Part shown: piece by piece, positions 41,364 to 63,043 of the stretch | How the letters are laid out: the number at the start of each line of letters is the position of its first letter | Position numbering within the stretch: position 1 is the first letter of the stretch | DNA from: Candidatus Latescibacterota bacterium | GTDB taxonomy: Bacteria; Latescibacterota; UBA2968 | Direction of reading: 5' to 3' | Length of the DNA stretch: 64,000 nt | NCBI GenBank assembly: GCA_022821275.1 | Contig: JAJEDY010000036.1 | Location: 1 to 64,000 of the forward strand | Notes under the pieces: model-generated | What the model was told of the DNA's origin: nothing | Seen by the model: only the letters and a program-made list of their open reading frames with translations | The model's database searches: none | Position numbers and translations under genes: made by a program

Positions 41364-43154
41364 TTAGTTGCTATTCCATCGAATATTACCCGGTTCGGGA
41401 GAAGATAGCAATATCATTCCCTGTCTGCGCGCCCAGATGTGTGCGGCTCTGGCCAGCACGGGATGGTCGGCATTTAGATATGTTAGTGCCATTTCCTCGG
41501 TGCCATACTGATGCAGAGCCTGGACGAGCAGGGGTTCTGCTTCAGACATTCCGTTTCGGATGAAGAAGGCGTGCGCGGCTGCTACGACCATGGTGCGTTT
41601 CTGTTCCAGGGCTTGCAGGAGTTTCTGGCGCGCCCTCGGCGCGGCAATTTCTCCCAGAGCTTCGGCAGAGCGCCATTGTACTTCTGGCTCGGGATGGTCG
41701 ATATGTTTCAGAAAATAGGTTTCTATCTGCAGTGTCGCCTCTCGTTCCCGCCAGTTGGTGTCCAGGCGGTCCAGCACCCTTACCATTCGCCGCGCCCATA
41801 TCCGTCCTTTTCCGATAATCGAGATGAGAGTATCTGCCACAGACGCATCGCCGATTGATCCCAGGGCATCAGCCCCTGCCCAGCGCACTTCGGCTGATTG
41901 ATCGTTCAGTATTTTCAGCAAGGGAGCGATGGCACCGCGGTCTCCAATTTCTCCCAGAGCTTCGGTTGCAATGCGCCGGACCTGTACCGATGTATCGTCT
42001 AACTGCTCAGTTAGCAAAGCTGTAGCACGGGGGTCCTTCAGTACACCCAGAGTTTGTATTGTTCCCAGGCGAAATACGCCTTGTTCTGTATTGGACAGGA
42101 TGGTCATGAGTGGTTCGACGGCGCGTGTATCTCGTAGTTCACCCAGAGCCAGTGCAGCCGCTGAAACGATGCCGGGATCACGATGTTCGAGGGCTTCTAC
42201 CAGTGGTTCAACGGCTCGCGCATCTCGCAGTTCACCCAGTGCTCTTATAGCGATATACTGCACTTGTTTGTTTGGGTCTTTTAGTGCCTCGAGGAGAGAT
42301 GGTGCTATCCGGGCATCTCCGATCTGCCCCAGGGCCTCGACAGCTTGTATCCGTGCCATCAGGTCTCCAGCCGCCAGTTGTGCGACAAAAAAGTCCATGG
42401 CAGCACCCGCACGCGTTTTCCACTCGGCATCCATTTCCGATAGCACCTGAACCGTCTGGTAGCGCGATTGGTTAGGCATTTTCAATCCGTCAATCAGGCG
42501 ATTGATCGCCTCTTTAGCCGGTGCAGAAGTTCGCCACGATGGATCGATGGTGTTGAGTGCTCCCACCATTACCCGACGCAGTTCTCTGTCCGCCTGTGGC
42601 AGGGCGTCAATCAGGGGGGCGAGAGTCTGTGGGTTTTTTAAATGGGCGAGGGTCAGCGCAGTCACCCACCGCACATCGCGTGCCCTATCTGTCAGCGCGG
42701 TGGTCAGTGCCTGAATGGACCGGTCGCCACCTGCGGTACCCAGACTTTGAATTGCTCCCAGGCTCAGCGGCCTTTCTCGCTCCTGCGCGATCCGTAGCAA
42801 GATTTCCACGGCCTTTTCGCCTCCGATATTGCCCAGGGCTTCGACCGCGCTCAGGCCCACCATGACATTTGGATCGCGAACAATCGCAATCAGCGAATCC
42901 ACTGCCTGCCGATCTCCCAATTTGCCCAGGGCTTCGCTTGCGGCTAATCTCACCTGGGCTTCTCGGTCTTTGAGGGTTTGGATGAGAGGCTGCACCGCAC
43001 TTCGGTCCCCTATTTCCCCTAACTGCATCGCTGCGCGGGCGCGCTCCGCAGCATTGGGATGCTCCAAAATTTGTACCCATTCGTCGGCTTTGGAAGCGCA
43101 TCCTGTGGTTAGCAAGCCCAGAATAATCAACCACAATCCGCCTTTTGTGATCAC
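41364..43154 (-). CDS. HEAT-repeat lipoprotein
   Basis: A 596-residue protein. It starts at GTG (43154), six bases after AGGAGG. The N-terminal hydrophobic segment ends in LLTTGC, a good lipobox, so it is probably lipid-anchored. The rest is about 16 HEAT/PBS-lyase-like repeats, each near 31 residues, for example AAMQLGEIGDRSAVQPLIQT and AASEALGKLGDRQAVDSLIA. Such superhelical proteins bind other proteins. The repeats are strikingly regular in the middle and less so at the ends. It is first in a run with the Tm-1-type pair and trmB. No enzyme motif was found. Confidence 0.88.
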   Translation of the reverse strand: MITKGGLWLIILGLLTTGCASKADEWVQILEHPNAAERARAAMQLGEIGDRSAVQPLIQTLKDREAQVRLAASEALGKLGDRQAVDSLIAIVRDPNVMVGLSAVEALGNIGGEKAVEILLRIAQERERPLSLGAIQSLGTAGGDRSIQALTTALTDRARDVRWVTALTLAHLKNPQTLAPLIDALPQADRELRRVMVGALNTIDPSWRTSAPAKEAINRLIDGLKMPNQSRYQTVQVLSEMDAEWKTRAGAAMDFFVAQLAAGDLMARIQAVEALGQIGDARIAPSLLEALKDPNKQVQYIAIRALGELRDARAVEPLVEALEHRDPGIVSAAALALGELRDTRAVEPLMTILSNTEQGVFRLGTIQTLGVLKDPRATALLTEQLDDTSVQVRRIATEALGEIGDRGAIAPLLKILNDQSAEVRWAGADALGSIGDASVADTLISIIGKGRIWARRMVRVLDRLDTNWREREATLQIETYFLKHIDHPEPEVQWRSAEALGEIAAPRARQKLLQALEQKRTMVVAAAHAFFIRNGMSEAEPLLVQALHQYGTEEMALTYLNADHPVLARAAHIWARRQGMILLSSPEPGNIRWNSN

Positions 43155-50241: not shown

Positions 50242-52260
50242 ATGCGCGTTATTGTTTGGTTCTTTATCCTGCTGGTGCCCCTGTCGGCTCACAGCCGCCC
50301 GGTGGTCGCGGTTTTGCCTTTTGAAGAGGCGAATACCGATTGGCTCCCGGAGGGTATGGCCTGGAGTTTGTCGGATAAGCTCCGCCGCGTGTCGGCACTG
50401 CAAATGGTCGATTCCGATCGGCTAAATGCCGCTCTGTCTAAATATCAGACGCCTGTGCAAGTTGGCCAGTCGGCGGGGGCAACACTGGTCCTGTACGGTG
50501 CCTGTCGGTTGGAGAAAGACCAGCTCAAAATCTCCGCCCGCGTTTTGCGGGTTGACACCGATGATATTCTGGAACTGGGAGAGGTGGATGGTTCTCTCGA
50601 GTCCCTTTTTGCTCTGCAGGATAGCGTGATTCGCCGCTTCATAGACGGTGTTGATCTCAGTGCTACCGATATCGAATGGAAGGCGATTCTTCGCAGACCC
50701 ACCCGATCCGTTCAGGCGTATATCCACTGGGTGCGCGCCCGGACAATCCTGACTGGCAATGCCGAGGCTCCGGATGTTGTGCGCGATCACCTCGACCGCG
50801 CCCTTGCCGAGGATGCCGGTTATGCCGATGCCCACAGCCACCTGGGGTTGCTTTTTGTCGCGCAACGCCGGTTCAAAGAAGCACTCGGTGCCTTGCAGAC
50901 CGCTGTGCGCCTCAAGCCCGATGATCCACTGACCCGCTACAATCTGGGTGTGGCTTATGCCAGTTTGGGGCAGCCCGATCGCGCTGCTGTCGCGTTCCAG
51001 GATGCGATTCGTCTCAAGCCCGATGATCCCATTACCCATTACAATCTGGGTATTCTACACCATCTTCAGGGCGATCACGAGGCTGCTATATCGCCCTTGC
51101 AGACGGCGGTTCGCCTTAAACCCGATTTTGCAGTTGCTTATCTAACCCTGGGCATTGCCCTTGCCAATACGCAATCTCTCACTCGCGCAGAAGACGCACT
51201 GAGAGAGGCGATTCGCCTCTCGCCCGAAAATGCCGATGCGCACTACAATCTGGGCGTTGTCTATATCGAGATGGGACACTACGATCGGGCGGTCGAAGTT
51301 TTAGAGCGAGCCGTCTCGCACAATCCAGAGCACGCCGATGCCCATTTTAATCTGGGTCGCGCTTATGAGGCACTGGGTCGCTATGATGAAGCCGTAGCCG
51401 CCTTCAAACAGGCCGCCCAATTCAATCCCGATTATGCCGATTTGCACTTTAATCTGGGCGTTGCCCATACCGAGGCCGGGCGTTTTGAGGAGGCTATTCG
51501 CGCCCTGCACACTGCCCGCCGGATCTATCCGCAAGATCCGCTCATCTATCACAATATGGGTATTGCCTATCGAAATGCCAGGCGTTTTGAAGAGGCGAAA
51601 AATGCTTTTCGCGAAGCGCTCCGTCTCAATCCCCATCTGGCTGATATTCATTTATCCATAGGTAGTCTGCAACTGGATATGGGACACTATGAACAGGGCC
51701 TTTCATCCATTCGAGAGGCTGTGCGTCTGACGCCCAAAAATGCCGATGCCCACCGCTATTTGGGCGAGGCTCTGGCCTATTTGAAACAGTATCCGGATGC
51801 GATTCAGGCTTTCCGAAAAGCCATTGACCTCAAACGCGAGGATGGAGACGCACATCTCGGTCTGGGCATGGTCTATTTGCATACCGGGCAAAAGACCGCA
51901 GCTGTATCTGCTCTCCAAACGGGTCTTCGGCTCAGTCCCGGACACCCCGATTCCCTCGCTATTGCCCGCGAAATCGCGCGGTTGCAGAAACAGCCTGATC
52001 AGGTCAGTACTTATCTGAACCGCGCCCGCGCTTTTGAGGATGCCGGGCTTTTGGACGAAGCGATTGATACCTATCGCAAAGCCGCCAGTCTCAGTCCTGA
52101 GAATGCCGATATTCAGCACGCTCTCGGCCTGGCCTGCCTGCGAGCCAATCGCCCGGAAGACGCGCTACCCGCCCTTCAGAAGGTTCTCAGTCTTCGTCCG
52201 GATCATCCCGACGCGAGTCTCATCCGGGATTTTATCCGCCGCATGGAAGAGGGGCGATGA
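50242..52260 (+). CDS. Exported TPR-repeat protein with TolB/FlgO-like N-domain
   Basis: A 672-residue protein. It has a signal peptide at 1-18 (VIVWFFILLVPLSAHS). Residues 19-135 (VVAVLPFEEANTDWLPEGMA) resemble the FlgO/TolB-like nucleotide-free domain seen before TPRs in many exported proteins. About 14 TPR units follow from residue 180 to 660, most with the form ADAHYNLGVVYIEMGHYDRA. The units are alike enough at the DNA level that recombination between them is likely. It overlaps the ASPIC/UnbV gene by four bases, so the two are co-translated. A complex with that partner at the outer surface is plausible but not shown. Confidence 0.85.
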   Translation: MRVIVWFFILLVPLSAHSRPVVAVLPFEEANTDWLPEGMAWSLSDKLRRVSALQMVDSDRLNAALSKYQTPVQVGQSAGATLVLYGACRLEKDQLKISARVLRVDTDDILELGEVDGSLESLFALQDSVIRRFIDGVDLSATDIEWKAILRRPTRSVQAYIHWVRARTILTGNAEAPDVVRDHLDRALAEDAGYADAHSHLGLLFVAQRRFKEALGALQTAVRLKPDDPLTRYNLGVAYASLGQPDRAAVAFQDAIRLKPDDPITHYNLGILHHLQGDHEAAISPLQTAVRLKPDFAVAYLTLGIALANTQSLTRAEDALREAIRLSPENADAHYNLGVVYIEMGHYDRAVEVLERAVSHNPEHADAHFNLGRAYEALGRYDEAVAAFKQAAQFNPDYADLHFNLGVAHTEAGRFEEAIRALHTARRIYPQDPLIYHNMGIAYRNARRFEEAKNAFREALRLNPHLADIHLSIGSLQLDMGHYEQGLSSIREAVRLTPKNADAHRYLGEALAYLKQYPDAIQAFRKAIDLKREDGDAHLGLGMVYLHTGQKTAAVSALQTGLRLSPGHPDSLAIAREIARLQKQPDQVSTYLNRARAFEDAGLLDEAIDTYRKAASLSPENADIQHALGLACLRANRPEDALPALQKVLSLRPDHPDASLIRDFIRRMEEGR

Positions 52261-53870
52261 CCATGATTCGCGTCGCGTTGTTCCTGTTCCTGATTTGCGC
52301 GCCCCATTCTATTGCCGCTGATACTATCCGTTTTACTGAAATAGCGGAGAAGGCGGGTATCCATTTTGTCCACAGTACCGGGGCAAAAGGTGGATGGCAC
52401 TATATCGAGACGATGGGTTCTGGCTGTGCGCTTTTCGACGCTGATGGCGATGGCGATCTGGATCTCTATCTGGTCAATGGCGCCAATCTGCCCGGACAAC
52501 CGGTTCAGGGTAGCAATGCGCTGTATCGCAATGATACGGATAAAACGATTCACTTGACTGATATTACTGAAGTTTCGGGTGCGCTCGGGCGAGGCTATGG
52601 CATGGGCTGCACCGTGGGCGACGCGGACAATGACGGCGATCTGGACCTGTACGTTACTGGCTATCCCGAAAATATTCTGTATGTGAACAATGGCGATGCT
52701 ACCTTCAAAGACGCTTCCCGGCAGGCGAATGTGACCGCAGGCGGATGGAGCGCGGGGGCGACTTTTTTCGATTTTGAGGCCGATGGCGATCTGGATCTCT
52801 ATGTGGTGCGCTATCTCACGTACGATCCCGCCCGCGAGCCGGTGTGTGAACGCAGTGGTGTGCGTACTTATTGCGCGCCGTACCGGTTTCGGGGTGCTCC
52901 CGATCTGCTCTATCAAAACAGCGGAAATGGCACATTTGAAGATATTTCTCAGCGGGCAGGAATCGCCGATCCCCGGGGCAAGGGTCTGGGCGTGCTCACG
53001 CTGGATTACGACCGGGATGGCGATACCGATCTCTATATCGCCAATGATACGACGCCCAATTTTCTCTATCGAAATGATGGCGATCGCTTTACTGAAGTCG
53101 GGCACAAAGCGGGTGTGAGCCTAAGTGCTTCGGGCCGTCCACAGGCCGGTATGGGCGTGGATGCTGGCGATGTGGATGGCGACGGGCGCACCGATCTTAT
53201 TGTTACCAATTTTTCCTATGAGTCAAATGCCTTTTATCACCATACAGAACAGGGTGTTTTTGCCGAGGCCAGTGCTCGTCTGGGGCTGACGGGACCGAGT
53301 ACGCTTCCTCTGGGCTTTGGCACACATTTCTTCGACGCGGATAGCGATGGCGATCTGGACCTTTTTGTCGCCAATGGTCATATTTTTTCCAATGTATCGG
53401 ATTTCTCTTCTGCCGAGTCCTACCCCCAGTCGGATCAGTTTTTCCGCAATACCGCAGGCGTTTTTGAAGACGTTTCCGAATCGGCGGGTTTTACATCGCC
53501 CGCTGTCAGCCGGGGTTCGGCGCTGGGCGATATAGATACCGACGGTGATCTGGACCTTATTGTGCTCGTCGCCGATGCCCGTCCGCATCTTTACAGGAAT
53601 GACACGCCAGCCCGTCAATGGATCATTGTCCAGATAGAGGGCGCGGATCGCAGTGCGATTGGTGCTCGCGTCACCCTTACTGCAGGTGGCCGTACCCAAT
53701 CGCGAGAGGTGCGAAGTCAATCCGGGTATCTATCTTCGGGAGATCCGCGTCTCCACTTCGGTCTGGGCGATGCCGAAGAGATTGATCGTCTGGATATCTG
53801 GTGGCCCTCTGGACGCACCCAAACTCTGAGCAATCTGTCTCCGAATCAGGTTCTGGTTATTGAGGAATAG
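52257..53870 (+). CDS. CRTAC1-like FG-GAP/VCBS and ASPIC/UnbV protein
   Basis: A 537-residue exported protein with signal peptide (1-20, ALFLFLICAPHSIAA). Repeats of the integrin-like FG-GAP type carry calcium loops of the form DADGDGDLDLYLVNG; I count six to eight. The last 120 residues match the ASPIC/UnbV domain (IGARVTLTAGGRTQSREVRS, DRLDIWWPSGRTQTLSNL). Proteins of this type are surface exposed and bind calcium, and their ligands are mostly unknown. The ATG overlaps the TPR gene stop by four bases (ATGA); another ATG six bases later is possible. It ends two bases from the stop of the convergent DUF6785-like gene. Confidence 0.88.
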   Translation: MTMIRVALFLFLICAPHSIAADTIRFTEIAEKAGIHFVHSTGAKGGWHYIETMGSGCALFDADGDGDLDLYLVNGANLPGQPVQGSNALYRNDTDKTIHLTDITEVSGALGRGYGMGCTVGDADNDGDLDLYVTGYPENILYVNNGDATFKDASRQANVTAGGWSAGATFFDFEADGDLDLYVVRYLTYDPAREPVCERSGVRTYCAPYRFRGAPDLLYQNSGNGTFEDISQRAGIADPRGKGLGVLTLDYDRDGDTDLYIANDTTPNFLYRNDGDRFTEVGHKAGVSLSASGRPQAGMGVDAGDVDGDGRTDLIVTNFSYESNAFYHHTEQGVFAEASARLGLTGPSTLPLGFGTHFFDADSDGDLDLFVANGHIFSNVSDFSSAESYPQSDQFFRNTAGVFEDVSESAGFTSPAVSRGSALGDIDTDGDLDLIVLVADARPHLYRNDTPARQWIIVQIEGADRSAIGARVTLTAGGRTQSREVRSQSGYLSSGDPRLHFGLGDAEEIDRLDIWWPSGRTQTLSNLSPNQVLVIEE

Positions 53871-55843: not shown

Positions 55844-58216
55844 TCAGGGCATGGGTTCTGTAATATTCACAATTTGTCCCGCAGACAGGTTCTCTACGAC
55901 CTGCACTGTTCCGCTGGGCCAGATCACTTCCAGTCGCGTTGCGCGATCGGCATCTCTCAGGCCAAAGTGGATCGCATAGGGGTCGGTTGACCCGAATCCA
56001 ACGCTTCCGAGCACCTCCCGGAACAGGATGCGGTTTCCGACTGTCAGGCGCAATTTTGCGCCCACGCCAAAACGATTGCTTTGCCGTCCCTGAAATGTGA
56101 CCTGTAGCCAGCGGTTCTGATTTTTCGACTCGTTGCGGTATAGCGCGTTTTCGAATAAGTCTCCGTGGTACCATCCGCCTTGTGGTGCGTACACATCGAG
56201 GTCGCCATCCGCGTCGTAATCGGCAAATGTGATGCCGTGTCCTTTGCCCAGGTGTCCCATTCCCACGTATTCGGTCAGGTCGGTAAATGTCCCGTTCCCG
56301 TTATTGCGATAAAATCGGTTTGGCTCCAGGCGTCCCAGGTCCGGATCGCCTGTCCCGAAGTACACGTCCAGGTACCCGTCGTTATCTATGTCTCCCACAT
56401 TGCCGCCCATTACGCCGTGGGCATAGATGAATCCCGCTTCGTAGGAGACATCTGTGAAGCGCCAGCCTTCGGCCTGGCCCTCGTTGCGGTATAGCTTGGG
56501 CGTTGGATAGGCCGGGTCGGTGGGCGCGGTATAGCCGACCTGTTGTCCCTCTAAGCTCTCTTTGAATCCGGCAAGGCAGGTGGTCAGGATGTCCAGGTCG
56601 CCGTCGTTGTCGTAGTCGAAGAAAAACGATACGTAGCCTTGAAGTGTGCCGCTTCCGGCGACGTTGGAAACCCGTGCGACATCTACAAAGGTGCCGTCGC
56701 CGCGATTTCGATACAGGGCATTGGGCGTCTCGAAGCCGGTTACAAAGATGTCCAGGTCGCCGTCTAAATCGTAATCGCCGAAGGCTGCACCTATCGTGCC
56801 CAGGTCAAAATGAAGGCCCGCTTTGTCTGTGGTTTCGACAAAGTTTCCATTGTTGCGATAGTGCGCGTTTGAGGATCCGTCTCCGGCAATGCCATTTGCT
56901 ATAAATAAATCCAGATCGCCATCGTTATCCGTATCGCCCCACAGGGAGACAAATCCCGATCCCCCGTCGTTTGTGCCCGAAGTTGTGGATACATCGGTAA
57001 ATTGGCCCCCGTCATTTCGGTAGAGTGCGTTTGGTCCGGGTCCGGACCACCCGCTGCGGGCGATATAGAGGTCCAGGTCGCCATCGTTGTCGTAATCGAC
57101 GAGATTTCCCGAAAACCCCGAATCGACGTCTTTCAGGCCGATCTGGTTGCTGATATCCACAAATCGCGTTTCGTCGTTGCGGTAAAACGCGAGGTACGTG
57201 TCGCATCCCTGCGCCAGCAGGTCCAGGTCGCCATCGCCGTCGATATCTCCCCAGGCACTCGGTCCGGCTCCGTCCAATTTGGCTACGCCCAGGTCGCGCG
57301 CCACATCTGTAAAGCGCACGGGCAGGGGTGTGTCTATAGATTCGGGGCGCTGGTCAAAGCGATAATAAGACCACAACGACCAGGGATAACCGCCGAGTTT
57401 GTCATAGGCTTGTTTCAAATTCCACTGGGTGCGCAAAAACCATTCGTCTGTTTCCGGCAGGGCGCGCAGCAGATTTAAGAATGTTTCGGCTGATTTTCGA
57501 TACTGTCCCGCGCGGTAATAGGCCACGCCGATCCGATCCGGTATGCGCAGGTCCAGCCGATCCTTTTGCATCTGCATCGCCACTTTCAAGCGTTCAATTG
57601 CCGCTTCGTAATCCCCCATTCTCAGAAGGGCGAGGCCGGCCAGATAGCGTGCTTCTGCATCGTTTACGGCGTTATCGGATAATTTGTCGGCGTGGTGAAA
57701 TGCGCGTTCCAGCAAGATGCGAGAATCGTTCAGGGGCATGATTTGTCCGCTGCTTCCCATTTTCTGATTTTCAAACCAGATGGTTTCCCCGCCCAGCAGC
57801 CAGGTGACGTATTCTTTTCGCACGTCCAGCATCAGGGGTTGTCCCGCGAGCGCTGCTTCAAATTGCGCTGCTGCGCGGGCGGGTTCCCGCTGTGAACGGT
57901 AAAGCCGCGCAAGCCATGTTCGCGCTTCGACCTCATCCGGATTGCGGGCTACTGCCTGCTCAAACGCGGCTATTGCTTCGGGGCGGTTTTGAATTGCGAG
58001 TACTTTGCCCAGGTGGAGATGGGCCGCGCTTTGCGTCGAGTCGATGTGAATACACCGGCGAAATTCCGCTTCAGCCGCTTCGTACTGCGCTCGCCGCATG
58101 CTTTCTATTCCCTGCTGGAGATGCGTGGCATAATCCATCCGCATGCCCGGCGAAATCTCCCTTTGTTCACCGCATCCTATTGACAGGACAATCAGTAGCA
58201 GAAGGAGTACCATCAT
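55844..58216 (-). CDS. TPR-FG-GAP-ASPIC/UnbV lipoprotein
   Basis: A 790-residue protein. The N-terminus (MMVLLLLLIVLSIGC) is a short hydrophobic segment with a cysteine at 15, so a lipoprotein is likely, although the lipobox is not ideal. Residues 30-290 hold five to six TPR units. Residues 310-680 carry about seven FG-GAP/VCBS calcium loops (GDIDGDGDLDLLAQG, DYDNDGDLDLYIARS). The final 100 residues are an ASPIC/UnbV domain (VGAKLRLTVGNRILFREVLG, LEVIWPSGTVQVVENL). It begins one base after the ABC ATPase stop and ends three bases before the DUF6785 start. An ATG at 58234, inside the ATPase gene, is an alternative. Confidence 0.85.
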   Translation of the reverse strand: MMVLLLLLIVLSIGCGEQREISPGMRMDYATHLQQGIESMRRAQYEAAEAEFRRCIHIDSTQSAAHLHLGKVLAIQNRPEAIAAFEQAVARNPDEVEARTWLARLYRSQREPARAAAQFEAALAGQPLMLDVRKEYVTWLLGGETIWFENQKMGSSGQIMPLNDSRILLERAFHHADKLSDNAVNDAEARYLAGLALLRMGDYEAAIERLKVAMQMQKDRLDLRIPDRIGVAYYRAGQYRKSAETFLNLLRALPETDEWFLRTQWNLKQAYDKLGGYPWSLWSYYRFDQRPESIDTPLPVRFTDVARDLGVAKLDGAGPSAWGDIDGDGDLDLLAQGCDTYLAFYRNDETRFVDISNQIGLKDVDSGFSGNLVDYDNDGDLDLYIARSGWSGPGPNALYRNDGGQFTDVSTTSGTNDGGSGFVSLWGDTDNDGDLDLFIANGIAGDGSSNAHYRNNGNFVETTDKAGLHFDLGTIGAAFGDYDLDGDLDIFVTGFETPNALYRNRGDGTFVDVARVSNVAGSGTLQGYVSFFFDYDNDGDLDILTTCLAGFKESLEGQQVGYTAPTDPAYPTPKLYRNEGQAEGWRFTDVSYEAGFIYAHGVMGGNVGDIDNDGYLDVYFGTGDPDLGRLEPNRFYRNNGNGTFTDLTEYVGMGHLGKGHGITFADYDADGDLDVYAPQGGWYHGDLFENALYRNESKNQNRWLQVTFQGRQSNRFGVGAKLRLTVGNRILFREVLGSVGFGSTDPYAIHFGLRDADRATRLEVIWPSGTVQVVENLSAGQIVNITEPMP

Positions 58217-58217
58217 G

Positions 58218-58868
58218 TCAGACCACCCGTCCATCTGCGAGTTTTATCTGGCGGTCTGCTCGATTTGCCAGATCCAGGTTGTGCGTGGATAGCACGATTG
58301 TCAATTTCATATCCCGCAATAATGCCACGATCTCATTCCCCTGTTTTGAATCCAGGTTGCCAGTTGGTTCGTCTGCGAGCAAGATCTCGGGGTTGTTTAC
58401 GAGTGCGCGTGCAATGGCTACCCGTTGCTGTTCACCCCCCGATAGTTCGCGGGGCAGGTGATCTGAGCGGTCTTGCAAACCCACGCGCGCCAGCAAATCT
58501 CTTACCCGGTTGCGTTGATGCAGTGCGCGGGAAAAGAGGAGGGGGAGTGCCACGTTTTCTTCGACGGTCAATGTGGGTACCAGGCAATAGTCTTGAAATA
58601 CGAATCCCACATGTTGCCGACGCATAATTTCCAGGTCTTTGCCGCGCAAAGCGTGCACATTTCGACCCAGTAATTTCAAAAGGCCCGATGTGGGGCGGTC
58701 CAGACACCCTATAAGGTTCAACAGGGTTGTTTTTCCCGCGCCCGACGCGCCTGTGATGGCTACAAATTCGCCGGGTTCTATAACCAGATCTACACCGAAT
58801 AACGCTGCGATTTCTTCGGCTGAACGGCGGTATATTCGCGTGAGTCCCCGTGCGAGAATAGCCGACAT
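58218..58868 (-). CDS. ABC transporter ATPase, LolD/MacB family
   Basis: A 216-residue ATPase. Walker A is TGASGAGKTTLL (39-50), the signature is LSGGEQQR (142-149), Walker B is ILLADEPTGNLD (162-173), and the switch histidine is in LSTHN. This set is typical of the LolD/MacB group, which works with FtsX-like permeases in lipoprotein sorting or peptide and macrolide export. The ATG lies one base after the permease stop. The N-terminal extension from an earlier ATG overlaps the permease and has no similarity, so I excluded it. Downstream it abuts a UnbV lipoprotein, a candidate substrate of the exporter. Confidence 0.92.
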   Translation of the reverse strand: MSAILARGLTRIYRRSAEEIAALFGVDLVIEPGEFVAITGASGAGKTTLLNLIGCLDRPTSGLLKLLGRNVHALRGKDLEIMRRQHVGFVFQDYCLVPTLTVEENVALPLLFSRALHQRNRVRDLLARVGLQDRSDHLPRELSGGEQQRVAIARALVNNPEILLADEPTGNLDSKQGNEIVALLRDMKLTIVLSTHNLDLANRADRQIKLADGRVV

Positions 58869-58869
58869 T

Positions 58870-60081
58870 TCAGCGCATCCACTCAATGGGATGCAGGCGG
58901 GAAGCCCGCCACCCCGGTATGATTCCAGCCAGTATGCCCATGCCTGCTGCCATTGCAATCCCGCCGATTAGTAGTAGGCCATCAATTTGCACCAGTACGC
59001 CTGCGGGGACAAATGGGAGAATCGCGCGTACGGCTTCAGATGCCATACGGCTGCCCAGGACCGCGATTCCGCCACCGGCGATTCCGCCTGCGGTGCAGAT
59101 TGTAAACGCCTCTGCACAGATCAATGCAAATACATCGCCCCGAGATGCTCCAATTGCTCGCATTACGCCGATTTCTCGAGTCCGTTCAAAGACTGCGATT
59201 AGCATGGTATTCATTACGCCGAGTACCGCAATTGCCACGGCTACGATGGCGACTGTTCCGATGAAAAACCGCGCTGTGCCCAGGAGGTCGAGAAGGGTCC
59301 GCTGAACCTGCGCCATGGTGATGACCTGTACCGAGGGTATTTCGAATACGCGTGCCGAAAATTCGTCTATTCTGGACAGGTCTTTTAATTTTACGCCGAT
59401 GCCTGTGAGTTTCTCCTGTTTGTCGAAGAGGCGTTGCGCTACCCCAAGCGGTACGAAGATGGTGCCGTCGTCCTGTGTTCCGCTGCGGTCAAAAATCCCG
59501 CGTACGCGGAATGTTTGTCCCAGTCCTTTGAGCGGAAAATCGTCTCCGATGTTTTTCCGATAGTATGCCGCTACGCTGTATCCCAGAATTACCTCGTCGG
59601 CCGCACCTTCGCCGAACCACTCGCCTCGCTGGAAGGTCAGCCAGGGTTTCATTTCCAGAAAGCTGTTTTCTATTCCCGTTACCAGGGAAAATCCCTCCCG
59701 GTGTACGGAAAGCGATCCGAGGAATAACCGCGTCGTGATCGCCACATCGGCGTCTCGAAGAATTTCCCGGTGGATGGCTTCATCCATGTACATCGGGATT
59801 ACCCCGCCTTGCATCAGCAGGGTTGCCGCTTCGTAGGGACATCCTTTTGAGGTGACCAGGATGTGATACCCCAGGCGGTCAATGCTTTGGATGAGGGATG
59901 TGCGGTATCCGATTCCCAGGCCCAGGAGGCTGACCAGGACGCATACGGATAGGGCCACGCCGCTTATGGTTAGAGCGCTTCGCGTGCGGTGTCGCCGCAG
60001 TTCTTTGAGGACGACGCTTATAAATTGAAAAATGACCAAATTTTTACCTTTTTGCGATAGTTTTTGCGTGACGTCTGCCAT
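58870..60081 (-). CDS. MacB/FtsX-type ABC permease
   Basis: A 403-residue permease. One membrane helix lies near residues 37-57 (ALTISGVALSVCVLVSLLGL), a large extracytoplasmic MacB_PCD-like domain follows (60-255), and three helices complete the FtsX domain (FFIGTVAIVAVAIAVLGVMN near 275-294, EAFTICTAGGIAGGGIAVLG near 325 and another near 370). MNTMLIAVFERTREIGVMRA is the FtsX family signature. It is first in a four-gene run with an ATPase, a UnbV lipoprotein and a DUF6785 protein. The -10 box lies six bases before the ATG, so the mRNA may be leaderless, and no ribosome-binding site is visible. Confidence 0.9.
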   Translation of the reverse strand: MADVTQKLSQKGKNLVIFQFISVVLKELRRHRTRSALTISGVALSVCVLVSLLGLGIGYRTSLIQSIDRLGYHILVTSKGCPYEAATLLMQGGVIPMYMDEAIHREILRDADVAITTRLFLGSLSVHREGFSLVTGIENSFLEMKPWLTFQRGEWFGEGAADEVILGYSVAAYYRKNIGDDFPLKGLGQTFRVRGIFDRSGTQDDGTIFVPLGVAQRLFDKQEKLTGIGVKLKDLSRIDEFSARVFEIPSVQVITMAQVQRTLLDLLGTARFFIGTVAIVAVAIAVLGVMNTMLIAVFERTREIGVMRAIGASRGDVFALICAEAFTICTAGGIAGGGIAVLGSRMASEAVRAILPFVPAGVLVQIDGLLLIGGIAMAAGMGILAGIIPGWRASRLHPIEWMR

Positions 60082-60115: not shown

Positions 60116-60153
60116 GGGATTCTCCCATCCGTTTTCTCTGAGGGGAAATGCCG

Positions 60154-61986
60154 ATGAAAAAAATGATATGGGTTCTTCTGGTCGGCGTCTGCCTGGCGTG
60201 CAAGCCCTCTCAACCCGATGTATCTACGGCGTTCGTCGGCGTACATCGCTGTGCGAGTTGCCATATGGAAGCGTTTCAAGAGTGGCAACGCACGACCCAT
60301 GCGACTTCCATGCAAGAAGCGACTCCGCAGACTGTTAAGGGCGATTTCACAAAAAATAATGCCTATACTTTCGGTGGTATTACCTCCACGATGAGCCTTC
60401 GAGATGGTCGCTATTTTATCACGACACCGGGGGCCGATGGGTCGCAAGGTACCTATGAAGTTCTCTACACGATTGGCGACCGGGATACGCAGTGGTACAT
60501 CACTGAGCTTCCCGGAGGGCATTTGCAGATTCTTCCGGTTTATTTCGATGTTCGCAGAAATACCTGGTACAATCCCGTCGAAGGTATTATCGCCTCGCCG
60601 TCCGATCAGCCCTTAGATCCCCGCGATACGTCGTTCTGGATGCATTTTGGGCGCAATTGGAGCGCGCAGTGTTTTGATTGTCACGCCAGCCAGATTGAGG
60701 TCAATTACGATCCCGATGCGGGTACTTATGATTCCCGCTGGGTAGATCTGAGCATCAATTGCGAAACCTGCCACGGTCCCGGGCAGGGCCATGTCGCGTT
60801 TTGGGAGCGGGCGCTGACAGATGCCGATGCCGCCAGCGCGCAGGATACTTCGCTGGTGAATTTGAGAATGCTCTCTTCAGAACAATCCGTAGAACTCTGC
60901 GCGCAGTGCCACGCGACCAAGCGCATTTTGAAACTGGGCTATCGGCCCGGCGACAATTTTTACGATTTTTACGAACCTGTTGTTCTGGATTTTGAAGGTA
61001 TGTGGCCCGATGGGCGCTACCGGCATCTCGCGTATAATTATACGGCGCTCACGCTCAGTCCCTGTTATACGGAGGGGGGAGTGACGTGTTTGACCTGCCA
61101 TCCGTCCCACGGTCCGGAGGGAGAGAAGAAGACAAGGGCAGATTTCGACGGTATATGTATGCAGTGTCACCGGGATATAGAGCCTTGGGAACACAGCCGC
61201 CACGAGCAGCATATCGCCTGCGTAGATTGTCACATGCCTCCTGTACCCGAAGTGCGCCGGGTGCGCGTGTTTGACCACCGCATTGCGTCTCCTGTGCCAG
61301 CGAATACCGTGCGCTTTGGCATTCCAAATGCCTGCGGCGAATGCCACGGGGACCGCACGCCCGAATGGGCTGTGGAAAAGACGGAGGCCTGGTGGGGGAA
61401 ACAGGATGATTATCTTTTGCAAACGGCTGCCATCGCACTGGGGCGACAGGGAAATCCGATGGCTGTGTCTCCTCTGAAAGACGAGTTGTTCGATCTGTCC
61501 AATAATCCCACGCGGCGGGCTTCTGCGGCTTTGCTTCTGGGTCGCACCCGTTCCGCGCAGGCTGTTCCCGTGCTCCTCAATGCTTTGAAAGATCCGCATC
61601 CGCTGATCCGCGCAAAGGCGATAGAAGGCCTGGGTCTGATCGGTCAGGCGCGGGTTGTGCCTGCACTTGTTCCATTGTTAAACGATCCGATCCGCCTCGT
61701 GCGTTTGGCTCTCGTGCCCGCTGTCGAAAATTTGGGCATACATTATCTGAGGGGCCAGGACTACGAGCGCTATGAAGCCATTTTTGCCGAATACGAACAG
61801 GCGACCAAAGAGGTCTGGGCGACGGATCCTTATGTGCATGCGTTTCTCGGATGGGCTTATGTGAGGCGGGGAAATACCGAATTGGCCCGGCGCGCTTTCC
61901 AGCGGGCACTGCGGATTTGGCCCGGCATTGAGGATGCAGCCAGAGGACTGGCGCAGATACATAACACAGAAAAAAATGACCGATGA
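60154..61986 (+). CDS. Octahaem cytochrome c lipoprotein with HEAT and TPR tail
   Basis: A 610-residue exported protein. A lipobox-like VCLAC puts the lipid-anchored cysteine at 16. Eight CxxCH haem sites begin at C33, C173, C203, C249, C312, C335, C356 and C394. The wide gap between the first two holds a beta-rich domain with aromatic residues (about 70-165), which is not an obvious catalytic domain. After residue 410, four HEAT-like repeats (PMAVSPLKDELFDLSN, AVPVLLNALKDPHPLI) are followed by one or two TPR units (AFLGWAYVRRGNTELARRAF). It resembles c554/multihaem tetrathionate- or nitrite-type proteins with a fused scaffold. I use the ATG at 60154, seven bases after AGGGGAA. Confidence 0.85.
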   Translation: MKKMIWVLLVGVCLACKPSQPDVSTAFVGVHRCASCHMEAFQEWQRTTHATSMQEATPQTVKGDFTKNNAYTFGGITSTMSLRDGRYFITTPGADGSQGTYEVLYTIGDRDTQWYITELPGGHLQILPVYFDVRRNTWYNPVEGIIASPSDQPLDPRDTSFWMHFGRNWSAQCFDCHASQIEVNYDPDAGTYDSRWVDLSINCETCHGPGQGHVAFWERALTDADAASAQDTSLVNLRMLSSEQSVELCAQCHATKRILKLGYRPGDNFYDFYEPVVLDFEGMWPDGRYRHLAYNYTALTLSPCYTEGGVTCLTCHPSHGPEGEKKTRADFDGICMQCHRDIEPWEHSRHEQHIACVDCHMPPVPEVRRVRVFDHRIASPVPANTVRFGIPNACGECHGDRTPEWAVEKTEAWWGKQDDYLLQTAAIALGRQGNPMAVSPLKDELFDLSNNPTRRASAALLLGRTRSAQAVPVLLNALKDPHPLIRAKAIEGLGLIGQARVVPALVPLLNDPIRLVRLALVPAVENLGIHYLRGQDYERYEAIFAEYEQATKEVWATDPYVHAFLGWAYVRRGNTELARRAFQRALRIWPGIEDAARGLAQIHNTEKNDR

Positions 61987-62029: not shown

Positions 62030-63043
62030 TTAGAACGATCCGGTTATGGATACGCGCAGGGGCGGATCAAATAATGGGCCGAAATTTATATATGCAAAAT
62101 CGACGCCGATCTTCCGTCCCACGCCCAAATCCTTTTGGACGCCGCCGCCCAGTGTATAGCTACCCAGGTCGTAGCGCCCCCGGTAACCGGCTCGCAGTGC
62201 CAGCGTGTTGGCCACCCATAATTCGCCGCCTACGTGCCAGCGCTCGCGGTCGTCAATGTGGTGCACGAGTTCGGCTGCCACGGTTAGATACGTGGGATCG
62301 CCCTTGCGTCCGTACGGCTCCATCGCCAAAGCGATGGTGTAGATCAAGGGCTGGGCAATCGAAGTGCCCTGCGGCAGAGACCCGGGAATTACCAGTTCCT
62401 GGTCTTTGCCGAAGTTGCGAAGCGTCATGGCCAGACGCGAACTGCCAAATCCGGTGTAAAAAATACTGGAAAAGTCGAATGAGGCACTGTTGATTTTGTC
62501 CTGGTCCAGCGTCTCTTGAATCCACTTTATAGACGCACCCAGCGACAATTTGTCCGTCATTTTGTACGCATAACCGAAGTTTATGAAAATATCGCCAGCC
62601 GATATATCCCGCGTGAAGCGCCCCTGCGGATCCAGAGGTGTGGTCTCTCGAGAGGTGCCCGCGTCAAACTGAACGACCGACAGTCCAAAGGTCTGCTGGC
62701 CGTATCGCCAGGCGACCGCACCGTTGAAAAATTTCGAATCTACCATCCAGCGCGTATATCCCAGGGCATATTCGAACTGCTCGATATGGGTCAATGCCGC
62801 CGTGTTCCAGAACATTGCATTGATGTCGTCGGCTGCGGCTGTAAACGCATCGCCCATTGCTGCTGCCCGCGCGCTTTGCCCCACTTTCAATGCGTGGAAC
62901 GAAGCTCGTCCGGTTCCGTGAAACTCTTTTGTCCGATGCTGACCTGCGCGCACGCCGGACGGCAACTGATAATTTTGCGCCCAGGCGTCTGACCCCAAAA
63001 GCCCGACGGCCAGGAGCATCGTATAAATAGTTAATCGTTTCAC
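62030..63043 (-). CDS. PorV/PorQ-family outer-membrane protein
   Basis: A 337-residue protein with signal peptide (1-23, LLAVGLLGSDAWAQ). The family hallmark lies at about 50-80: LKVGQSARAAAMGDAFTAAA and DDINAMFWNTAALTHIE. The rest alternates hydrophobic strands suited to a beta-barrel (FNGAVAWRYGQQTFGLSVVQ, LALRAGYRGRYDLGSYTLGG). PorV-type proteins act in type IX secretion or as general outer-membrane proteins in FCB bacteria. The C-terminal aromatic residue (GSF) is typical for barrel insertion. It lies 52 bases after a large secreted protein, which may be its cargo, but no other secretion genes are visible. Confidence 0.88.
   Translation of the reverse strand: MKRLTIYTMLLAVGLLGSDAWAQNYQLPSGVRAGQHRTKEFHGTGRASFHALKVGQSARAAAMGDAFTAAADDINAMFWNTAALTHIEQFEYALGYTRWMVDSKFFNGAVAWRYGQQTFGLSVVQFDAGTSRETTPLDPQGRFTRDISAGDIFINFGYAYKMTDKLSLGASIKWIQETLDQDKINSASFDFSSIFYTGFGSSRLAMTLRNFGKDQELVIPGSLPQGTSIAQPLIYTIALAMEPYGRKGDPTYLTVAAELVHHIDDRERWHVGGELWVANTLALRAGYRGRYDLGSYTLGGGVQKDLGVGRKIGVDFAYINFGPLFDPPLRVSITGSF

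Follow-up and report, generated by a model that had tools for sequence, protein, structure and literature searches.

The window, that is, the whole stretch of 64,000 nucleotides from a Candidatus Latescibacterota bacterium analysed here (host genome of 5.66 Mb in 101 contigs), encodes a protein in which eight CxxCH haem-binding motifs are followed by a tail of HEAT and TPR repeats. Judged by sequence, its haem part belongs to the OcwA/MccA branch of the NrfA/c554 superfamily and is not a new kind of haem domain. It is the architectural variant that is new, within a haem superfamily already known, and it is common in the databases under generic names. With moderate confidence, we regard the protein as a periplasmic, probably lipid-anchored octahaem oxidoreductase or electron hub of the OcwA/MccA type, with haem 2 as the probable reaction site and the HEAT/TPR tail as a docking module. 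At least three phyla would combine an OcwA/MccA-type haem wire with a solenoid for protein docking. Rhizobia, which are amenable to genetics, are among the carriers, so that the function of a common and apparently unstudied cytochrome family can be tested; the strict choice between Cys and Met at residue 306 and the linkage to sulfatases provide two concrete hooks on that function.

The octahaem gene and its haem motifs

The features of the gene are given below in window coordinates, with residues counted from ATG 60148.

60148..61986, + strand: gene of the octahaem-HEAT-TPR protein, 612 aa from ATG 60148 or 610 aa from ATG 60154
60154..60201, + strand: signal peptide with the probable lipidation residue Cys-18 (CLAC), from the sequence and from relatives' lipoboxes at the same place
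60250..60264, + strand: haem 1 motif CASCH, with a cytochrome c554-like start (PF13435, E 4.8e-7)
60331..60660, + strand: strand-rich segment aa 62-171 between haems 1 and 2, presumed equivalent of the OcwA/MccA beta domain by its position in the 6i5b alignment (available text of PMC6703420)
60670..60684, + strand: haem 2 motif CFDCH, the probable substrate-site haem by homology (OcwA alignment; available text of PMC6703420)
60760..60774, + strand: haem 3 motif CETCH
60898..60912, + strand: haem 4 motif CAQCH
61063..61065, + strand: Cys-306, the only non-haem cysteine of the mature protein, aligned near OcwA HH281/282
61087..61101, + strand: haem 5 motif CLTCH, aligned with OcwA haem 6
61156..61170, + strand: haem 6 motif CMQCH, aligned with OcwA haem 7
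61219..61233, + strand: haem 7 motif CVDCH, aligned with OcwA haem 8
61333..61347, + strand: haem 8 motif CGECH, aligned with OcwA haem 9
61411..61752, + strand: about four HEAT hairpins, aa 422-535 (Pfam, AlphaFold, conserved arginines)
61819..61980, + strand: one TPR and a capping helix, aa 558-611 (Pfam, AlphaFold)

ATG 60154 is the preferred start because GAGGGG lies 8 nt upstream of it, a better spacing than that of the in-frame ATG 60148, which is only 2 nt away from the same GAGGGG. The protein had initially been called a lipoprotein, and a lipid anchor is indeed likely from its N-terminus, although CLAC (aa 15-18), with a Cys at -3, is not a textbook lipobox; those of the relatives are cleaner (FASC, LTAC, LAAC).

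All eight CxxCH motifs (aa 35, 175, 205, 251, 314, 337, 358 and 396) lie in one open reading frame, whereas two was the maximum in 20,000 sequences made by shuffling its residues. The gap between the end of motif 1 (aa 39) and the start of motif 2 (aa 175) is exactly 135 residues, and the start-to-start spacings from motif 2 onwards are 30, 46, 63, 23, 21 and 38. The count of eight and the succession of one haem, a 135-residue gap and seven haems, both read in the initial annotation, are thereby confirmed. Its description of the gap as rich in aromatic residues was not borne out: Phe, Trp and Tyr make up 19 of the 135 residues vs. 39 of 459 elsewhere (Fisher p = 0.07), which is not a clear enrichment. 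As for variants, the haem 8 motif reads CX4CH instead of CxxCH at six loci (L022, L023, L024, L026, L054 and L057), and the long forms L026 and L027 (genomes G017 and G016) have an extra N-terminal CxxCH 27 residues before haem 1, i.e. nine haem motifs.

The Pfam models above cut-off on the octahaem protein are HEAT_2, HEAT_PBS, HEAT, C554, C552, C7, c3 and Paired_CXXCH_1, with TPR below. None of the curated NCBIfam models covers the protein, all their matches except that of a short doubled-CXXCH domain model being far below cut-off. Structure prediction of the gap, proposed initially for residues 40-165, was run on aa 56-172 with an alignment of five relatives only; strands were predicted, at pLDDT <50 (mean 49), and Foldseek found no fold match for this model (best E 0.16). 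The whole protein, modelled with four near-identical relatives, reached a mean pLDDT of 41, its haem part being badly modelled. These alignments were shallow because the contig scan for relatives gave only near-identical loci, and the structural claims made below rest on none of the AlphaFold or Foldseek results for the haem part or the beta segment.

Relationship of the haem domain to OcwA and MccA

Profile A3, built from the haem part alone of 14 sequences, was run against the PDB sequences and matched 25 distinct ones at E <= 0.1. The best matches were 6i5b (7.8e-29), 6qvm (2e-17) and 6r2q_A (1.9e-15), the last of which we take to be a decahaem MtrA chain, listed under another name; cytochrome c554 (1bvb, 2.1e-10), NrfA (6v0a, 2.7e-9) and MccA (4rkm, first haem only, 7e-6) came further down. 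The alignment with 6i5b, which is OcwA of Thermincola potens (PMC6703420), is colinear: window haems 1-4 correspond to OcwA haems 1-4 and window haems 5-8 to OcwA haems 6-9, OcwA haem 5 being unpartnered. A middle piece of A3 also aligns the haem-5/6 region to OcwA haem 5, in an overlapping and weaker match (25.8 vs. 59.9 bits).

According to the available text of PMC6703420, OcwA haems 1-4 superpose on c554, haems 5-9 on NrfA and haems 1-4 plus 6-9 on MccA; SirA/MccA and OcwA/OmhA are also grouped structurally in the accessible part of PMC10376724. Since OcwA haem 5 is missing here, the haem set is that described for MccA. The haem spacing had been thought unlike that of known nitrite reductases; this holds for NrfA but is incomplete, the spacing being that of the OcwA/MccA branch. 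A beta-sheet domain is common to OcwA (aa 75-156) and MccA and is given in the same available text as absent from other NrfA proteins (PMC6703420), and we infer that the 135-residue gap is its equivalent.

The match between the window protein and OcwA takes in eight haems in order and the stretch after the last haem, and both have an insert at the same place between haems 1 and 2. OcwA, in contrast, has nine haems, HH281/282 at haem 2 and a C-terminal helix bundle, whereas the window protein and its family lack OcwA haem 5, carry Cys or Met at 306 and continue into a HEAT-TPR solenoid. In MccA, copper is bound by two cysteines at haem 2; the window protein differs in having a single lone cysteine (306), as well as in its HEAT-TPR tail. 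It shares with this octahaem sulfite reductase (MccA/SirA, 4rkm) the eight haems equivalent to OcwA 1-4 and 6-9, and presumably the beta domain that MccA possesses (available text of PMC6703420), but it matches MccA in sequence at the first haem only and has no CX15CH, the haem motif of MccA (PMC7096707), all eight motifs being CxxCH. The pentahaem NrfA is matched in the region of window haems 7-8 (PF02335, Cytochrom_C552, 6.4e-9; 6v0a); the window protein, however, lacks the CxxCK catalytic haem, the only CxxCK match being CLACK in the signal peptide, and adds a c554-like half and the HEAT tail. The tetrahaem c554 (1bvb) resembles it in the first haem signature and the stretch of window haems 2-4, but has only four haems, no 135-residue insert and no HEAT repeats. 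An MtrC/OmcA-type surface protein was also considered and rejected, as the window protein shows no such Pfam domains at E<=1; an MtrC II/IV domain match was obtained in 6 of 17 family members.

Conservation was read from 46 aligned rows (25 + 21), which are not independent, as they include near-identical orthologues and at least one contig twice. The proximal His is invariant in all 46 for haems 1-7 and present in 43 for haem 8, with three gaps. At residue 306, all 27 Latescibacterota rows have Cys and all 19 other rows Met; Ser-304, two positions before, is invariant (46/46). By hand mapping, OcwA H281 aligns with residue 306 at moderate posterior, the numbering of the 6i5b alignment being offset by 29 from that of PMC6703420 for both HH pairs. 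In the available text of that paper, OcwA haems 2 and 5 are open, with HH281/282 and HH380/381 on their distal sides, haem 9 is His-Met, and the authors refer to haem 2 as the active site of c554, MccA and OcwA (PMC6703420). It is because of these comparisons that haem 2 appears as the likely reaction site here. It may be open or influenced by Cys-306; in the 19 other rows, the Met could serve as an axial ligand, and haem 2 would then be simply a low-spin carrier. Only six non-motif histidines are well conserved (51, 215, 321, 349, 352 and 377) for eight haems, so that at least two haems have no conserved His as distal ligand. H349 is aligned with OcwA H380, which belongs to the pocket of the lost OcwA haem 5; the heptahaem short forms described below lack H349 and H352 as aligned.

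Distribution of the family and its repeat tail

The initial annotation had suggested a search for other cytochromes with HEAT tails, and such a family does exist. Full-length homologues, 24-53% identical and with the haem spacing and HEAT tail kept, were found in Latescibacterota, Alpha- and Gammaproteobacteria and Bacteroidota. Under the database names 'multiheme c-type cytochrome' and 'tetratricopeptide repeat protein', the same architecture is present over the full length in Rhizobium, Sinorhizobium, Methylosinus, Pseudoalteromonas, Vibrio and Aureibacter, these proteins being unlike that of the window in their Met at 306, sulfatase neighbours and longer tails. No description of a multihaem-HEAT-TPR family was found among the papers listed in searches of the open-licence PMC literature.

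Concerning the phylum itself, 25 of 64 genomes match at E <= 1e-20; by reading, 16 of these have the long form (in two pieces in G018) and nine only a short heptahaem form, whose matches fall within aa 22-367, without HEAT or TPR. These short forms (L029-L037) lack haem 8 and both repeat types and keep the S-x-Cys. Five near-identical public loci were recovered, four labelled Latescibacterota and one Gemmatimonadota, and the host has two paralogues, on contigs C80 (about 50-53% identical) and C56 (39%). In one otherwise ~89-90% identical orthologue (L013:9962-11796; G030:C201:61834-63629), decay or an assembly error has split the gene into two frames, with the break midway through the haem domain.

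A tblastn search of plasmids returned 149 records; in 136 of these, the matches cover at least 80% of the query. They are mostly from Rhizobium and Sinorhizobium, and also from Methylosinus, Methylocystis, Vibrio, Pseudoalteromonas, Granulicella and others, with further homologues in Aureibacter (Bacteroidota) and Alteromonas; at the loci opened, identity to the window protein is 25-31%. The scan of viral contigs gave 24 pattern matches and no relative, and none was found in phages.

The four HEAT-like repeats initially noted are supported by Pfam (HEAT_2, E 3.9e-17, with HEAT_PBS and HEAT also matching) and by about four AlphaFold hairpins, the first of which is weak (block pLDDT 37-62, vs. 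58-90 for the others). The tail is well modelled from about aa 450, as three or four HEAT hairpins, one TPR hairpin and a capping helix. The plural of the "TPR units" was overstated: a single repeat (aa 562-590) is present besides the capping helix, and its TPR_2 match is below cut-off (E 3.6e-5, 24.0 bits vs. 27). The HEAT arginines 457, 488 and 519 are kept in 41, 42 and 41 of the 42 long rows, respectively, and the tail is therefore an inherited part of the family. In long forms, the part after the last haem is 216-605 residues long. The contrary picture, in which a trivial extension follows a standard fold of the c554 or NrfA type, is half right: by sequence, the haem part is a c554 and NrfA composite, but a tail so conserved across phyla is not trivial. 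The solenoid probably docks partner proteins. Elsewhere in the window (41367-43154), a probable HEAT-repeat lipoprotein has repeats that match this tail (two matches).

Gene neighbourhoods and possible functions

The neighbours of interest in the window are the following.

52257..53870, + strand: FG-GAP/UnbV protein, possible partner; 62% identical gene in the L053 paralogue cluster, 43% in L058 and L060
53873..55840, - strand: DUF6785/DUF6784 membrane protein, possible partner; the paralogue in L053 has a 30% identical gene beside it
55844..58234, - strand: TPR + FG-GAP + UnbV/ASPIC (CRTAC1-type) protein, possible partner; family members in L053, L058 and L060 have similar genes nearby
58218..60081, - strand: MacB/FtsX-type ABC ATPase and permease, divergent neighbours; permease assigned by domains, ATPase named from sequence

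Close relatives keep this neighbourhood as far as their loci reach, and only in them do the ABC genes adjoin the octahaem gene. The C80 paralogue cluster looks like a second copy of the window cluster, with FG-GAP/UnbV (62% identical), DUF6785 (30%) and the counterpart of the gene at 62030 (43%), as well as a TPR gene. FG-GAP/UnbV genes also lie near a family member in L058, beside a heptahaem short form (L060) and, as CRTAC1, in Pseudoalteromonas carrageenovora. The C56 paralogue cluster comprises an FGE-fold lipoprotein and a second octahaem gene, along with two genes named from sequence, for a probable beta barrel of 257 aa and a probable TonB receptor. FGE usually carries cysteines after RGG; the FGE-like gene in L052 has no Cys there, and an active FGE partner was rejected for this locus. 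The second octahaem protein (L052:12081-13286) resembles hydrazine dehydrogenase/HAO (NF052343, E 5e-29, 101 bits vs. a cut-off of 900) and has a probable N-terminal membrane anchor; eight-haem neighbours also occur in L054, L055 and L057.

Twenty plasmid loci were opened, 16 with usable gene tables and four without (L044, L051, L063/L066 and L071). A sulfatase lies within three genes of the cytochrome in 13 of the 16 annotated loci, from Alpha- and Gammaproteobacteria and Bacteroidota (L042, L043, L045, L047, L049, L050, L062, L064, L065, L068, L069, L070 and L072), which include related strains and hence fewer independent lineages; none was found within three genes in L046, L048 and L067. 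In Vibrio THAF190c, the distance is about 2 kb. With one sulfatase as control query, mostly one or two places were hit per Rhizobium plasmid, a lower bound as divergent sulfatases are missed. Among eight neighbouring sulfatase-superfamily genes, the CxPxR motif has the Cys form in four, the Ser form in one and is lacking in three, one of which is annotated as an alkaline phosphatase family protein. The host genome (G000) has a very large set, at least 150 sulfatase (PF00884) matches in 5.7 Mb, and among the matches listed none is on C64, the window's contig, or on C80.

In the preferred reading, a c554-like half of four haems, probably with the beta domain inserted between haems 1 and 2, would be joined to an NrfA-like half of four haems without the NrfA catalytic haem (OcwA haem 5). 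Along the resulting wire, electrons would reach or leave haem 2, and the reaction probably takes place on the distal side of this haem, close to Cys-306. The HEAT and TPR solenoid would replace the helix bundle of OcwA, dock partners and keep the redox unit within a complex, to which the FG-GAP/UnbV and DUF6785 proteins of the same cluster may belong. The surface electron carrier tethered to other proteins, as first proposed, is no longer the default, haem 2 being the reaction site of the relatives; as a pure carrier or outer-surface conduit from membrane donors to solenoid-docked partners, with no chemistry at haem 2, it is a possible, more tentative explanation. A His-Met low-spin haem would be in keeping with the Met of all 19 rows from outside Latescibacterota, and the C56 cluster offers a second octahaem gene together with the beta-barrel and TonB-receptor-like genes. 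OcwA itself is a cell-surface terminal reductase, yet haem 2 is the active site in the characterised relatives (available text of PMC6703420 for both), Cys is not a common carrier ligand, and the window gene shows no surface-export or porin-cytochrome signs. In Aureibacter pAT1 (L047), cytochrome b and Rieske genes lie directly upstream of the octahaem-HEAT-TPR gene, which suits an electron acceptor of a bc-type complex and hence a carrier. A conventional nitrite or hydroxylamine reductase (NrfA, ONR or HAO type) to which an accessory tail has been added is very unlikely: the Cytochrom_C552 match and the slow reduction of nitrite by OcwA (available text of PMC6703420) speak for it, but there is neither CxxCK nor a counterpart of the NrfA catalytic haem, and the match to NF008339, the nitrite-reductase model of NCBIfam, reaches 22 bits vs. 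a cut-off of 595. As that catalytic haem is missing, nitrite reduction is unlikely as the main job.

The sulfatase neighbours, together with the few sulfatase places on most of the Rhizobium records listed and the resemblance of the haem set to that of a sulfite reductase (available text of PMC6703420), would fit a redox protein coupled to sulfatases, through sulfur oxyanion chemistry or the redox activation of a partner sulfatase. We consider this unlikely, since the sulfatases listed for the genome, abundant as they are, include none on the window's contig or on C80, three annotated loci lack one, and the FGE-fold lipoprotein beside the C56 paralogue is without the usual Cys. Its most specific version is slightly more doubtful still: a periplasmic enzyme whose haem 2 would be governed by a lone distal Cys in Latescibacterota or Met in others, performing sulfur chemistry or sulfatase activation while the tail holds the sulfatase or another partner. 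If true, this would be a multihaem enzyme of a kind for which the papers searched give no description. In Sinorhizobium meliloti, SMa1683, which is lowered in a tolC mutant, is an arylsulfatase (accessible part of PMC2912261) and SMa1682 an acid phosphatase (accessible part of PMC12542648); from gene order, both would be neighbours of the pSymA octahaem copy.
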